A DNA stretch of 64,000 nucleotides, from positions 1-64,000 of the forward strand of contig NZ_BMLX01000002.1 of assembly GCF_014645535.1 (NCBI RefSeq), read 5' to 3'. Positions 38,972 through 52,213 of this stretch are shown here, piece by piece. A model generated the notes under the pieces. That model was not told where the DNA came from and made no database searches. It saw nothing but the letters and a program-made list of their open reading frames with translations. The DNA comes from Silvimonas iriomotensis. GTDB lineage: Bacteria > Pseudomonadota > Gammaproteobacteria > Burkholderiales > Chitinibacteraceae. How positions within the stretch are numbered: position 1 is the first letter of the stretch; the number at the start of each line of letters is the position of its first letter. The position numbers and the translations under genes are program-made.

Positions 38972-39634
38972 ATGAACCTTGTCGCCGCCCATTTTCCGCA
39001 ATCCTGGCTGATTGCCGCCTGGGTGCTTGCCGGCGCGCTGCTGATCCGTTCAGCAGTGCGCGTGCCGTGGTTCAAGCTGCCGCAAGCCGATATGACCTGC
39101 TGGTTTGGCGGCGTGGTAGCCGTGCTGATCGCATGGCAAATGAAAGCCAGCCTGCAACCGGGGCTGGCTTTTCATTTGATCGGTGCGGCAGCGCTCACGC
39201 TCATTGCCGGGCCGGATCGCGCGCGGCTGGGGCTGGCCGTGGCCCTGGCGGCAGATATCTACGACGGTCACGGCAACTGGGCCAGCATGGGTTTGTCCTG
39301 GCTGATCGTCGCCGCCGTCCCCACCACGCTCACCTGGCAATTGCTGCGCTTTGCGCAAAAGAAAATGCCGCTGAACTACTTCACCTATATTTTCGTGAAC
39401 AGTTTTGCGGCCGGGGTGTTGTCGATGTGGATGGCAGGCTTGCTGACCTGCGGCTTGTTGTCGCTGGCCGGGGCGTATGACTTTGGCTTTCTGGTGGATG
39501 AACAACTGCCGTATTACTTCTTGATGGGCTGGCCCGAAGGCTTTACCACCGGCATCGTCATGACCTTGCTGGTGGTGTATTTCCCGCAATGGGTGGCGAC
39601 GTTTGATGACGCGCTGTACCTGCAGGACAAGTAG
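38972..39634 (+). CDS. CbiM-like membrane protein (energy-coupling-factor S component type)
   Basis: 220 residues with about seven membrane segments. The motif NYFTYIFVNSFAAGVLSMW and the closing LPYYFLMGWPEGFTTGIVMT resemble CbiM/NikM-like substrate-binding membrane proteins for cobalt or nickel uptake. No CbiN, Q or O partners are nearby, so it may work alone or with partners elsewhere. The start at 38972 matches the family and follows the hydrolase stop after 13 bases. The TAG stop is immediately followed by a heptamer repeat array. Confidence 0.8.
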   Translation: MNLVAAHFPQSWLIAAWVLAGALLIRSAVRVPWFKLPQADMTCWFGGVVAVLIAWQMKASLQPGLAFHLIGAAALTLIAGPDRARLGLAVALAADIYDGHGNWASMGLSWLIVAAVPTTLTWQLLRFAQKKMPLNYFTYIFVNSFAAGVLSMWMAGLLTCGLLSLAGAYDFGFLVDEQLPYYFLMGWPEGFTTGIVMTLLVVYFPQWVATFDDALYLQDK

Positions 39635-39690
39635 TGAGGTGTGAGGTGTGAGGTGTGAGGTGTGAGGTGTGAGGTGTGAGGTGTGAGGTG
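39635..39690 (+). repeat. TGAGGTG heptamer array, eight copies
   Basis: Eight perfect tandem copies of TGAGGTG start on the base after the TAG stop of the CbiM-like gene. They lie between two convergent genes. The same heptamer is found after three other stop codons in this window. Confidence 0.95.
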
Positions 39691-39740
39691 TGCCGAGTGT
39701 ACGGCGGGGTTTGCCGGGTGCAACTGCTGTTTCACGCGCC
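39691..39740 (+). repeat. 50-bp tail of the heptamer element, copy 1
   Basis: This segment (tgccgagtgtacggcggggt onward, ending gcgcc) matches 41819-41868 at all but two positions. It follows the heptamer array in both places, so array plus tail form one dispersed element. Confidence 0.9.
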
Positions 39741-41027: not shown

Positions 41028-41765
41028 ATGGAACCGCTTGATCACCTTGCCCGCCTTATCCAGAACGCCAGTCACATTGCCGTGTTGTCCGGAGCCGGGA
41101 TGAGCACCGAATCGGGCATTCCGGATTTTCGCTCCGCCAATGGCCTGTTCACCCAGAACCGCAGCTTTGCCGAGGTGGTATCGATTGATTACTTCCTGGA
41201 TTGCCCGGACGGTTTCTGGGATGCGTTCCGCGATATCTTCAAGCTCAAACTGGCTGGCCAGTACGAACCCAACGCCGGCCACCGTTTTCTGGCCTGGCTA
41301 GAGCAACAAGGCAAACGCGTCAGCGTGCTCACCCAGAATATCGATGGCCTGCATCACAAGGCCGGCAGCACCGAAGTGCTGGAAATGCACGGCAGCCTGA
41401 TGGGCGCCAGTTGCCTCTCTTGCGGTACGCAGCATGATCTGGCCTGGGTGCAGCAACATGCCGTGCCGCATTGCCGCCGTTGCAACGAAGTGATCAAGCC
41501 GGACGTGGTGCTGTATGGCGAAGCCGTGCCGCTGATCGAGCGCGCGTTTGATCTGGCGGTGAATGCCGATCTGGTGCTGGTCATGGGTTCATCGCTGGAA
41601 GTCGGCCCGGTGAACATGATTCCGGTAGAGGCGGCGCGCTATAACGTGCCGTGCGCGCTGATCAACCTGTCTGATACCCGGCTGGACCGCTTCTTTGAAG
41701 TGATTATCCGCGCGCCAATCGGGGAGACTTGCCTGGCACTGCAGACGCAACTGGGCGCGGAGTGA
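41028..41765 (+). CDS. cobB: NAD-dependent protein deacylase, sirtuin (SIR2) family
   Basis: Removes acyl groups from protein lysines using NAD. The 245 residues include GAGMSTESGIPDFRS, TQNIDGLHHKAG with the NAD ribose contacts, the catalytic His in EMHGS, a zinc module with paired cysteines (CLSC and CRRC), and the MGSSLEVGPVNMIP segment. The start at 41028 has no clear ribosome site; a TTG at 41007 would add seven residues. Its TGA stop is also the first three bases of a TGAGGTG array. Confidence 0.9.
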   Translation: MEPLDHLARLIQNASHIAVLSGAGMSTESGIPDFRSANGLFTQNRSFAEVVSIDYFLDCPDGFWDAFRDIFKLKLAGQYEPNAGHRFLAWLEQQGKRVSVLTQNIDGLHHKAGSTEVLEMHGSLMGASCLSCGTQHDLAWVQQHAVPHCRRCNEVIKPDVVLYGEAVPLIERAFDLAVNADLVLVMGSSLEVGPVNMIPVEAARYNVPCALINLSDTRLDRFFEVIIRAPIGETCLALQTQLGAE

Positions 41766-41818
41766 GGTGTGAGGTGTGAGGTGTGAGGTGTGAGGTGTGA
41801 GGTGTGAGGTGTGAGGTG
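41763..41818 (+). repeat. TGAGGTG heptamer array, eight copies
   Basis: Eight perfect tandem TGAGGTG units. The first unit contains the sirtuin stop codon. The copy number and unit are the same as at 39635. Confidence 0.95.
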
Positions 41819-41868
41819 TGCAGAGTGTACGGCGGGGTTTGCCGGGTGCAACTGCTGTTTCAGGCGCC
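41819..41868 (+). repeat. 50-bp tail of the heptamer element, copy 2
   Basis: Matches 39691-39740 except at two bases (tgcagag for tgccgag and caggcg for cacgcg). The following cacttcgtcattccg resembles cacttcgtcgttccg at 51214-51228 after the array at 51143. Confidence 0.9.
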
Positions 41869-41879
41869 CCACCACTTCG

Positions 41880-45692: not shown

Positions 45693-45807
45693 CAAAAGAA
45701 AGGCGGCCCCCGGACTTTTGCCCTCCGGGCTTCCCTCAATCCGTCGGGAGCCTGGGGTCTCCCTCCCTCAATCGGAAAAGTCCTTGAAAGGGGGAGAAAG
45801 TCAAAAG

Positions 45808-45888
45808 CAACTGCAACTGCAACTGCAACAGCAACAGCAACAACTGCAACTGCAACAGCAACAGCAAACGTGACTGCAACTGCAACAT
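45808..45888 (+). repeat. CAACTG/CAACAG hexamer array
   Basis: About thirteen imperfect units of CAACTG or CAACAG with one 3-base slip (caa at 45838-45840). It ends 14 bases before the SDR start codon. It leaves no classical ribosome site close to that start. Confidence 0.9.
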
Positions 45889-46640: not shown

Positions 46641-46657
46641 GCGTGAGGCGTGAGGTG
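46638..46657 (+). repeat. Short degenerate TGAGGTG array at the SDR stop
   Basis: TGAGCG-TGAGGCG-TGAGGTG starts with the stop codon itself. It is the same unit as at 39635 and 41763 but only about three copies, the first two altered. Confidence 0.8.
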
Positions 46658-46781
46658 GGAGGAATACAGACCCGCCCCTGACCGCCGCGCGAAGGGCATT
46701 GGACATTGCAACGATAGAAGGAGCGGGCTGCAGCAGGTGAAGTGTGAAAAACAAGGCGGACCACCCTGGCATACGGGTTTT

Positions 46782-46811
46782 ACACCTCACTCATTGCGCC
46801 TCACTCCTCAC
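46782..46811 (-). repeat. Inverted TGAGG copies before the ABC ATPase gene
   Basis: On the minus strand this reads GTGAGGAGTGAGGCG, then AATGAGTGAGGTGT. It faces the array at 46638, and together they could pair in the mRNA between the SDR and ATPase genes. Confidence 0.7.
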
Positions 46812-46822
46812 AGGGAAACCCC

Positions 46823-48938: not shown

Positions 48939-49793
48939 ATGCGCATTGATGCCCACCAGCATTTCTGGGATCTCTCGCTGGCCGGTTACGACTGGCCCAC
49001 GCCAGAGCTGACCGCCATCTACCGCAGTTTCCGGCCGCTGGACCTGCAACCCCTGCTGGCCGCCAACGGTATTGACGGCACGGTGCTGGTGCAAACACGG
49101 CCATCAGTGGTCGAGAACTTTTATCTGACCGATCTGGCCGCGCGCCACCCGTTTATCCTGGGCGTCGTGGGCTGGCTGGATCTGGCCGCGCGCGACGCCC
49201 CGATCCGTATTGCCAAATGGGCCGAACAGGACAAGTTCAAAGGCGTGCGTCCCATGCTGCAAGGGCTGGATGACGACCGCTGGATTCTCCAGAGCGGGCT
49301 GGAGCCGGCCATTCGCGCACTCATGGCGCACGGCCTGAGCTTTGACGCGCTGGTCCTGCCCCGACACCTGCCCCATCTGGCGGTGTTTGCGCAGCGCTAC
49401 CCGGAACTGCCCATTGTCATTGATCACGCGGCCAAACCGGACATCGCCGCGCAAATCCTTGAGCCGTGGCGTGAAGACATTGCCGCGCTGGCCGCGCTAC
49501 CCAATGTGCATTGCAAATTCTCAGGCCTCGTGACGGAGGCGGCCACCGACTGGCACACCGATCACCTGCGCCCGTATTGCGAACATCTGCTGTCCATGTT
49601 CGGCCCGCAGCGGCTGATCTGGGGCAGCGATTGGCCGGTGTTGCGTCTGGCGGGGGATTACGCCCGCTGGTGCAGCACCACGGATGAATTGCTCGCCCCG
49701 CTAGACCCGACACAGCGCGCAGCCATCCTGGGCGATAACGCCGTCGCCTTCTACCGGCTTGCCGCTGCGCAGCCGGACACCACAAAAGCATGA
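48939..49793 (+). CDS. Amidohydrolase-2 family sugar lactonase (L-fuconolactonase type)
   Basis: 284 residues. It opens with the metal-binding IDAHQHFWD (His6, His8), then has a VIDHAAKPD strand, a KFSGLVTEA segment and the closing WGSDWPVLRL with the catalytic Asp. This matches the COG3618 lactonases that open L-fucono- or L-rhamnono-lactone. It starts two bases after the reductase stop, so the lactone made by the reductase is handed on directly. Confidence 0.9.
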   Translation: MRIDAHQHFWDLSLAGYDWPTPELTAIYRSFRPLDLQPLLAANGIDGTVLVQTRPSVVENFYLTDLAARHPFILGVVGWLDLAARDAPIRIAKWAEQDKFKGVRPMLQGLDDDRWILQSGLEPAIRALMAHGLSFDALVLPRHLPHLAVFAQRYPELPIVIDHAAKPDIAAQILEPWREDIAALAALPNVHCKFSGLVTEAATDWHTDHLRPYCEHLLSMFGPQRLIWGSDWPVLRLAGDYARWCSTTDELLAPLDPTQRAAILGDNAVAFYRLAAAQPDTTKA

Positions 49794-49819
49794 AGTGCAC
49801 ACGACTCTGGAGGCCTGAG

Positions 49820-51145
49820 ATGAAGAACCAACCGTTTGTTGCATCGCTGACGCTGTTATCGACCCTGGCCGCAACCCTGGTCATGCCCGCTGCCTGGGCC
49901 GGCCCGTATGACGGCTATACCCTGCGCGTGAAACTGATTGGCGGCGAGCAGTACGAGCCGCTGTATTCGGTGATCCCGGAGTGGGAAAAGAAAACCGGCG
50001 CCAAAGTGCAGATCGTATCGAGCAAGAGCCATTTCGAGCTGGACCGCGAACTCAAGCAGGACATCGCGTCGGGCAAGATCGATTACTGTCTGTTCTCTAA
50101 CCACACCAACTTTGCTGCGCAATACGTCACCATCACCCGCGACCTCAAACCGCTGGTGCCGGCTGATTTTGTCAGCAAGTTCTCGCCGCGCGTGATCCAG
50201 CAATCCACCATCAAGGGCAAGCTGCTGGAGATCCCGCGTCACTCTGACATCAGCGAGTTGTATTACAACAAGAAAGCGTATGACGACCCGGCCAACAAGG
50301 CCGCGTACAAGGCCAAATTCGGCAAGGATCTGGCCCCGCCGCAAACCTGGGATGAAGTCGCCCAGCAAGCGAAATTCTTTGCCAAACCGCCCAACTTTTA
50401 CGGCACACAATTTGCCGGCAAAGATGAAGCGATCACCGGCCGCTTCTATGAAATGCTCGTTGCCAATGGCGGGCAGTTGTTCGACAAGAACTTCAAGCCC
50501 ACCTTCAACAGCCCGGCGGGTGTGAAGTCGCTCAACTGGTTTGTTGATCTGTACAAATCCGGCGCCGTACCCAAAGGCGCGCCCAACTATGTGTGGGATG
50601 ACCTGGGCAACGGCTTTGCCAGCGGCACGGTGGCGCTGGATCTGGACTGGGGCGGCTGGGCCAGCTTTTTCAACGATCCCAAGAGCAGCAAGATCGCCGG
50701 CAATGTCGGCATTGTCCGCGCGCCCAAGGGCTCGTCTGGCAAGCGCACCGGCTGGTCTGGTTCGCACTCGTTCTCTATCACCCAGTCTTGCGACAACCCC
50801 AAGGCCGCAGCTGATTTCCTGATGTTCATTACCGGCTTTGACGCCCAGATGCTGGAAGCCCGCCGTGGCCTGATGCCAACCCGGCTGGATGCCCAGCAGG
50901 CCGCCCTGGCCGAGTTCAAAGCCAAGAACGAGACCTATCTGACCGAGGTGTTCAACACCTTTGCCGCCGGCATGCGGGAAGATTCGTTCACCCCGCCGCT
51001 GATCCCGGAATGGGTTGAGGTCTCCAACAGCATCTGGCCAGAACTGCAAAAGGCGATTGTCGGCGACAAGACCAGCAAGCAGGCGCTGGACGATGCCGCG
51101 AAAAAAGTCGAGGCCTTGATGGATGACGCCGGGTATTACAAGTGA
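49820..51145 (+). CDS. ABC sugar importer periplasmic binding protein
   Basis: 441 residues with a Sec signal (MKNQPFVASLTLLSTLAATLVMPAAWA), which is followed by a family-1 (MalE-like) two-lobe binding protein. Features: FSNHTNFAAQYV, EIPRHSDISELYYNKKAYD, a Trp-rich segment WGGWASFF and the helix SHSFSITQSCDNPKAAADFL. The GGAGG ribosome site at seven bases from the ATG is the strongest of the operon, in keeping with the high level needed for a binding protein. The TGA stop forms the first bases of a heptamer array. Confidence 0.93.
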   Translation: MKNQPFVASLTLLSTLAATLVMPAAWAGPYDGYTLRVKLIGGEQYEPLYSVIPEWEKKTGAKVQIVSSKSHFELDRELKQDIASGKIDYCLFSNHTNFAAQYVTITRDLKPLVPADFVSKFSPRVIQQSTIKGKLLEIPRHSDISELYYNKKAYDDPANKAAYKAKFGKDLAPPQTWDEVAQQAKFFAKPPNFYGTQFAGKDEAITGRFYEMLVANGGQLFDKNFKPTFNSPAGVKSLNWFVDLYKSGAVPKGAPNYVWDDLGNGFASGTVALDLDWGGWASFFNDPKSSKIAGNVGIVRAPKGSSGKRTGWSGSHSFSITQSCDNPKAAADFLMFITGFDAQMLEARRGLMPTRLDAQQAALAEFKAKNETYLTEVFNTFAAGMREDSFTPPLIPEWVEVSNSIWPELQKAIVGDKTSKQALDDAAKKVEALMDDAGYYK

Positions 51146-51177
51146 GGTGTGAGGTGTGAGGTGTGAGGTGTGAGGTG
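51143..51177 (+). repeat. TGAGGTG heptamer array, five copies
   Basis: Five perfect tandem units that begin with the stop codon of the binding-protein gene. It lies at the junction to the first permease gene. Confidence 0.95.
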
Positions 51178-51194
51178 TGCCGGATTGTGCGGGC

Positions 51195-51207
51195 CACCTC
51201 ACCTCCC
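51195..51207 (-). repeat. Inverted heptamer copy (CACCTCACCTCCC)
   Basis: The complement reads GGGAGGTGAGGTG, the same unit as in the array 18 bases upstream. An mRNA stem between the two is possible, just after the binding-protein stop codon. Confidence 0.8.
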
Positions 51208-51310
51208 GCGCCATCACTTCGTCGTTCCGGCACGACCTTGCTGACCGTACAACGCAGGATTCACGCCTTCGGTTTGATCGGGGCGACAAGATGACGAAAC
51301 GGACCCAACC

Positions 51311-52213
51311 ATGAAACTGTTGCGAAAACTCCCGCCAGAAGCGCGCCTGTTGTTACCGGCGTTTGTGGTCATCCTTGTCGTGGTGGCGGTGCCGCTGCTG
51401 TTCTCGCTGTACACCAGTTTCACCAGTTACCGCCTGGTGCGGCCAGAAACCATCTGGAACGTGGTCTGGTTCAAAAACTACATCAAGTTGTTCGGGTCGA
51501 GCGATTTCTGGTGGGCGTTTGGCCGCACGGTGCTGTTCCTGACCGTGGTACTCAACCTGGAAATGCTGTTTGGCCTGGCGCTGGCCTTGCTGGTCAACCA
51601 GGTCACGCGCGGGCAGCGCATGCTGCGCACCATCATGATGTTCCCGATGATGTTCTCGCCGGTGCTGGTGGGGTTCCAGTTCAAGTTCATGTTCAACGAC
51701 AACATCGGCATCGTGAACCATATCTTGCAGAACTGGTTTGGCGTCACCCAGGCGATTCCATGGCTGGTAGAAAGCCACCTGGCGTTTTTCTCGCTGGCCT
51801 GTGCAGAAATCTGGAACAGCACCGCCGTGTTTGCCATCTTGCTGCTGGCCGGGCTGATGGCCATGCCGCAAGACCCGCTGGAAGCCGCGCGGGTAGACGG
51901 CTGCACGCCGTGGCAGGCGTTCCGGCACGTCACCCTGCCGTTCCTGATGCCGTTTGTGTATATCGCCATGACCATCCGCTCGCTGGATGTCGGGCGGGCG
52001 TTTGATATCGTCAAGATCATGACCAATGGCGGCCCGGCCGGCCGTACCGAACTGATCTGGACCCTCTCTGCCCGCGCCGGTTATGAAGACGCGCGCATGG
52101 GCTACGCCAATGCCATGTCTTATGTGGCGGTGCTGCTATCAATTGCCTTCACCGTGCATTTCTTTCGCAAGCTCAATGCCTCCCGCCAGTTCCTGAACGA
52201 AGTGGATGCCTGA
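51311..52213 (+). CDS. ABC sugar importer permease 1 (MalF/UgpA type)
   Basis: 300 residues, six membrane helices. The EAA loop that docks to the ATPase is EAARVDGCTPWQAFRHVTLP, and MMFPMMFSPVLVGFQFK is a typical core helix. It forms the membrane channel with the following permease. The gap of 165 bases after the binding-protein gene carries the heptamer element and may set different expression levels. Confidence 0.92.
   Translation: MKLLRKLPPEARLLLPAFVVILVVVAVPLLFSLYTSFTSYRLVRPETIWNVVWFKNYIKLFGSSDFWWAFGRTVLFLTVVLNLEMLFGLALALLVNQVTRGQRMLRTIMMFPMMFSPVLVGFQFKFMFNDNIGIVNHILQNWFGVTQAIPWLVESHLAFFSLACAEIWNSTAVFAILLLAGLMAMPQDPLEAARVDGCTPWQAFRHVTLPFLMPFVYIAMTIRSLDVGRAFDIVKIMTNGGPAGRTELIWTLSARAGYEDARMGYANAMSYVAVLLSIAFTVHFFRKLNASRQFLNEVDA

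Follow-up and report, generated by a model that had tools for sequence, protein, structure and literature searches.

Mycobacterial interspersed repetitive units (MIRUs) occupy overlapping stop/start DTGA sites, and the GTGAGGT arrays described here resemble them in being tandem intergenic repeats with a GTGA at the stop, although a MIRU unit spans tens of bases. Xanthomonas and Nostoc carry GGGNATC heptamers that, on the sense strand, lie close to stop codons or overlap them (Rehm 2015, PMC4692102), and the TAACTGA heptamers of Beggiatoaceae are found mostly just upstream of start codons (MacGregor 2015, PMC4679880). CGTC-tagged REPs, which include the dRS3 repeats of Neisseria, are palindromes for which no dedicated transposase has been found; their CGTC-1 dimers in H. 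neapolitanus sit within flanking palindromes, and the termini of another class, the GTAG REPs, often provide a TAG stop (Di Nocera 2013, PMC3733652). In E. coli, the structure between malE and malF protects the malE mRNA (PMC5927463), and stop-proximal REPs can stall ribosomes if they are located no more than 15 nt from the stop (PMC12306157). The element reported here unites CGTC REPs and stop-proximal heptamers. A literature search, outside which most subscription journals lay, returned no prior description of such an element and no paper on the array sequence itself.

The copy from which we started lies in a stretch of 64,000 nt of the Silvimonas iriomotensis genome (contig NZ_BMLX01000002.1, positions 1 to 64,000), referred to as the window. 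The relevant features of the window are as follows.

49790-51145, plus strand: ABC sugar-binding protein gene, an open reading frame (ORF) whose best phmmer match among solved maltose/sugar-binding proteins has an E of 1.2e-27
51142-51179, plus strand: heptamer array (GTGAGGT)5.4, outer end of the composite repeat
51180-51219, plus strand: element core, variant GTGCCGGATTGTGCGGGCCACCTCACCTCCCGC..., related to the core at two loci of the congener G042
51195-51202, minus strand: inverted copy CACCTCAC, within the core and able to pair with any heptamer
51220-51231, plus strand: truncated CGTC-REP remnant CGTCGTTCCGGC, of which the G042 ortholog keeps the whole palindrome
51286-51310, plus strand: native sequence, restarting at about 51286 by homology to the array-free congener G040
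51311-52213, plus strand: first permease gene (BPD_transp_1)
39634-39692, plus strand: GTGAGGT array of 8.4 units, then core, placed right on the TAG that ends a CbiM-like gene (39632-39634)
41762-41879, plus strand: GTGAGGT array of 8.4 units (41762-41820), running from the TGA that ends a SIR2 gene, and the start of a CGTC palindrome
46643-46812, plus strand: degenerate family member that shares an operon with the 51142 copy and separates the ABC ATPase gene from the gene before it

Reading of the sequence and TRF both gave a perfect period-7 array at 51142-51179, which starts 169 nt 5' of the permease ATG. The TGA at 51143-51145, within its first heptamer, is the in-frame stop of the 451-codon sugar-binding protein ORF, as the sequence-only reading had stated. 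That reading also saw an inverted copy 18 bases beyond the array; CACCTCAC is indeed present, separated by 17 nt from the closest unit with which it can pair (51170-51177). The array is not a product of chance, since the doublet GTGAGGTGTGAGGT has 21 matches with up to 2 mismatches in the window versus 0.28 expected in shuffles. The sugar-binding protein gene itself had no Pfam hit at E<=1e-3, and its neighborhood encodes two downstream permeases, an ABC ATPase, an aldo/keto reductase, an amidohydrolase, a mandelate-racemase-type enzyme and an FAA hydrolase. Rfam gave no matches at gathering scores in the window, and a consensus scan of 50900-51500 found neither an intrinsic terminator nor a promoter. 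A probably spurious minus-strand ORF of 477 codons (49856-51289) crosses the gene end and is lengthened because the array carries no stops on that strand. Just before the permease there is a micro-ORF, MTKRTQP* (51291-51314), whose TGA and the permease start codon overlap in an ATGA; a counterpart, MTTRTQP*, is present in G040, and none was seen in G042.

The architecture of the element is visible in complete copies (C5:42747-43143, C5:80462-80787, C5:83553-83934 and C1:244206-244528). Their left part consists of (GTGAGGT)n, a core beginning GTGCAGAGTGTACGGCGGGGTTTGCCGGGTGCAACTGC..., a palindrome (CGTCATTCC...GGAATCCAG) and an inner segment, and their right part of a palindrome (CTGGATTCC...GGAATGACG), a core ending ...GGTATGCACGCCTCCCC and an inverted array, (CTCCTCA)n. 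The right-end array is the inverted GTGAGG[A/C/T], and the interior is made up of the two cores and two opposed CGTC-type REP palindromes, which in the C5 and C1 copies form a dimer around the inner segment. This segment was found in both orientations (C5:83553-83934 versus C5:42747-43143), which suggests inversion between the CGTC palindromes. The copy at 51142 has its own core variant with CACCTCAC, followed by half a palindrome, and the second array is absent. Palindromes with a CGTC, TGTC or CCTC tag, a stem of 8 to 9 bp starting with AT, a loop of 4 to 5 nt and a CCA tail are present elsewhere in the genome and in the G042 ortholog (CGTCATTCCGGCCCTGAGCCGGAATCCAG); the 51142 copy does not have this form and, since only CGTCGTTCCGGC of the CGTC-REP is left, is by itself a remnant. 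Taken together, the feature is very likely one truncated member of a non-coding composite repeat that is dispersed in Silvimonas and its relatives.

Like CGTC-tagged REPs, this repeat has palindromes of the form CGTC-ATTCCGGC-loop-GCCGGAAT-CCA in opposed pairs, lies between convergent or co-directional genes near their 3' ends and has no dedicated transposase that could be found. Unlike them, its outer ends are heptamer arrays that supply a TGA, and the 51142 copy retains only half a palindrome. With the GGGNATC heptamers, it shares seven-base units in variable number, a genome-wide intergenic distribution and a downstream position, mostly <50 bp from the stop on the sense strand and in some cases overlapping it; however, GTGAGGT has GG runs only, with no three-G tract for a G-quadruplex, and its arrays stand exactly in stop register and are part of a composite repeat. 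The TAACTGA heptamers are likewise intergenic direct repeats that contain stop triplets and occur many times per genome, but they have another unit and another preferred position, at starts (PMC4679880). The malE-malF REP also forms a hairpin between a binding protein gene and the first permease gene (PMC5927463), whereas the Silvimonas element belongs to a different repeat family and is not conserved at the junction.

Approximately 22 GTGAGGT arrays are present in the whole S. iriomotensis genome, 18 of them ending in GTGAGGTGTGB, and a reversed control pattern had no occurrence genome-wide. In a survey of 864 kb, comprising the window and further genome sequence, all 18 period-7 arrays of at least three units were intergenic and none was coding, even though this DNA is 85 to 88% coding. 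Two of the copies in the window fill their gaps: at 41762-41879, the TCA of the palindrome is the stop of the convergent gene, and the gap is filled from stop to stop; at 46643-46812, heptamers begin 2 nt past the stop of the upstream gene, and the inverted ones leave about 11 nt to the start of the ATPase gene. CGTC-bearing sequences gave 47 matches in S. iriomotensis and 70 in G042 and are rare in G040 (12) and G041 (13). Arrays of periods 4, 6 and 12 also occur in the 864 kb, those of period 6 in genes as well as between them. A second intergenic class with six-base units of the CAACNG type was observed at 45807-45887 and at 13 intergenic sites of the survey, several of its arrays being preceded by AACCCCGAAAAT. 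A two-unit array at C2:791119 (L117) lies directly upstream of an apparent dnaJ gene on the other strand and is absent in all three congeners examined.

The arrays hold a strict register on stop codons. We call the register +4 when the first heptamer provides the TGA at which a gene stops, +11 and +18 being the other two frames; a gene entering an array at random would stop in each of the three equally often. Among 22 arrays of at least two units, 12 are at +4, and in 2 the TGA belongs to a partial first unit; another 4 come to within 2 nt of a stop, and the remaining 4 are not next to one. A stop is touched by 18 of the approximately 22 arrays, and the array itself supplies the TGA in 14. The probability of finding 12 of 12 arrays in one frame by chance is 1.9e-6. 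A recount limited to S. iriomotensis arrays of at least three units gave 10 at +4 and none at +11 or +18, and 16 of 19 such arrays had a sense-strand stop no more than 17 nt away; the stop was TGA in 14 of the 16 genes, versus 54% genome-wide. One +11 case in G042 (L211) was set aside, as its gene aligns without gaps to an S. iriomotensis gene ending at +4. Right-hand arrays have the same register on the stops of convergent genes, and therefore some elements take up all the sequence between two stops. This register is held by the array rather than by the REP, because the seven array-free CGTC clusters with a neighboring stop sit 31 to 339 nt from it.

Sites orthologous to those of S. iriomotensis were located in the congeners G040, G041 and G042 by a concatenated query, which found nearly all of them, and were then read. 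G042 has elements or cores at about 15 of 21 sites, and unit numbers at shared sites differ, for example, 16 versus 1 and 4 versus 10. G040 and G041 are without arrays at these sites and often have a TAA or TAG stop there. At two sites, TAA is present in both G040 and G041, while S. iriomotensis and G042 have TGA plus the element, a pattern which suggests that the TGA arrived together with the element. Quartet counts for the four-congener tree were 315, 286 and 269, too close to decide, and hence the sharing between S. iriomotensis and G042 may reflect descent or parallel insertion. A different dispersed inverted repeat, TAGGGTGGATTCG...CGAATCCACCCTA, was noticed in G040 and G042 at 10 to 35 nt past stops, and it occupies orthologs of S. 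iriomotensis heptamer-element sites.

Arrays of at least four units were detected in 9 of 43 Chitinibacteraceae genomes, representing 5 of 11 genera, and in none of 368 genomes of the class outside this family. Across 84,980 species genomes there were 50 array stretches in all, some of them from S. terrae and Andreprevotia. Of the 20 arrays belonging to other genera of this family, 13 are no more than 18 nt from a stop, 5 of them at +4; the stop-abutting ones carry unrelated interiors, and the Silvimonas core was not found in the four genomes of other family genera that were searched. The corresponding figures for unrelated taxa are 5 of 31 arrays within 18 nt, 4 of them at +4. It is conceivable, though doubtful, that the arrays are the recognition ends of a mobile element that targets stop codons, joins the first base or the TGA and thereby turns TAA or TAG into TGA, its interiors differing among Chitinibacteraceae genera.

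The sequence-only reading had likened the element to the REP hairpins at the malE-malF junction and had suggested an independent solution to the same task. The likeness is borne out insofar as full copies contain CGTC-type REP palindromes, the location is the 3' end of the binding-protein gene and a stop-proximal hairpin is possible. The idea of an independent solution finds no support: the element also sits on the stops of unrelated genes, including the CbiM-like and SIR2 genes and others, and a further copy takes up another gap within this operon (46643-46812). Since about 20 copies are placed on the stops of unrelated genes, the element is not a switch built for this junction. Nor is the junction stable among congeners. 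It carries an array in G042, a degenerate array and a hairpin of its own in G041, and no array in G040, where an unrelated palindromic repeat is present instead; the stop-to-ATG spacing is 169 nt in S. iriomotensis, 129 nt in G040 and approximately 390 nt in G042, and the core variant with the inverted copy recurs at another G042 locus.

In mechanistic terms, the idea of a solution for this junction would have a hairpin between the array and CACCUCAC keep 3' exonucleases off the binding-protein segment and reduce expression of the permease. This would fit the location, and differential decay with stabilized binding-protein mRNA is known from several ABC operons of E. coli (PMC5927463). A hairpin between a heptamer and CACCUCAC is predicted, with a 130-nt fold of -60.6 kcal/mol (z -3.0), and some structured repeat is found at the junction in all four congeners, the z values being -3.0 in S. 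iriomotensis, -4.8 in G040, -3.3 in G042 and -3.7 in G041, with repeats that are unrelated. This makes a weak case that some hairpin may be useful there. However, 28% of 110 comparable S. iriomotensis gaps reach z <= -2.9; with this baseline the fold is ordinary for the genome, and folding was dropped as a sign of function. Together with the copies behind unrelated genes and the differences among congeners, this leaves a junction-specific stabilizer decidedly unlikely. REP-like effects on mRNA are possible in themselves but would not be the reason why the element is present here.

Two further explanations dispense with a moving element or give the arrays a role of their own. Slippage-prone seven-base arrays could have grown by chance from TGAGG at stops; heptamers are the commonest long repeat class in most genomes studied, with slippage proposed as the cause (cited in PMC4679880 and PMC4692102), and the 864-kb survey, with periods 7 and 6 abundant, had no arrays of period 5, 8 to 11 or 13 to 21. 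Yet at most sites an array leads into the shared core and CGTC palindromes, inverted arrays close the far end of several copies, and 4.3% of genes end in TGAGG, few of them with arrays. A purely mutational origin is thus unlikely. Maintenance of the arrays as fail-safe translation terminators, acting against read-through and frameshifted ribosomes, appears very improbable. The arrays stand on stops in sense orientation, and (GTGAGGT)n has a stop in every sense-strand frame and none on the opposite strand; as each heptamer carries a TGA, three units close all three frames. On the other hand, GTGCGGT variant arrays without TGA exist (L126), array length varies and is not conserved, and a genome-wide study reported that eubacteria show no selection for extra stops (PMC6764699). 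With regard to the stop register only, the element might instead land anywhere in a 3' gap, with recombination at TGA-like microhomology then deleting the spacer up to the stop. Up to about 120 nt of native spacer, sometimes with a terminator, is unaligned in S. iriomotensis at several sites, and in-frame TGA junctions fit microhomology at the stop, but insertion and later deletion both predict an in-frame TGA, and spacer loss is indistinguishable from divergence. Moreover, some sites had little or nothing to delete: at one (W41) the native gap is about 4 nt, and at another (L114) native sequence restarts 12 nt past the stop. We regard such a deletion ratchet as possible but not probable.

The reading that we favor, a dispersed composite repeat, can be outlined as follows. 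The repeat would spread as a passenger of some helper enzyme, in the manner of REPs or MITEs, and its heptamer arrays would lengthen and shorten by slippage. It would land, or be retained, at stops, the junction being made on the T or the TGA of the stop, presumably because an array there closes the frame and leaves the protein unharmed. Its RNA would form a stop-proximal hairpin, and mild REP-like effects on decay or termination may arise as side effects. No target duplication was found. Transposition of the REP/RAYT kind was considered and rejected, as a search for the Y1 transposase (PF01797) at E<=1e-3 had no hit in S. iriomotensis or G042 but succeeded in 5 of 14 control genomes.

In summary, this locus cautions against taking a repeat at a suggestive junction for the regulator of that junction, as the same repeat stands behind genes that have nothing in common. 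Since unit numbers differ between close species, the arrays could be of use as typing markers. If insertion itself sets the register, bacteria would have here a repeat able to locate stop codons to the single base, and such a repeat, if real, would help to explain how compact genomes fill up with repeats without damage to their proteins.
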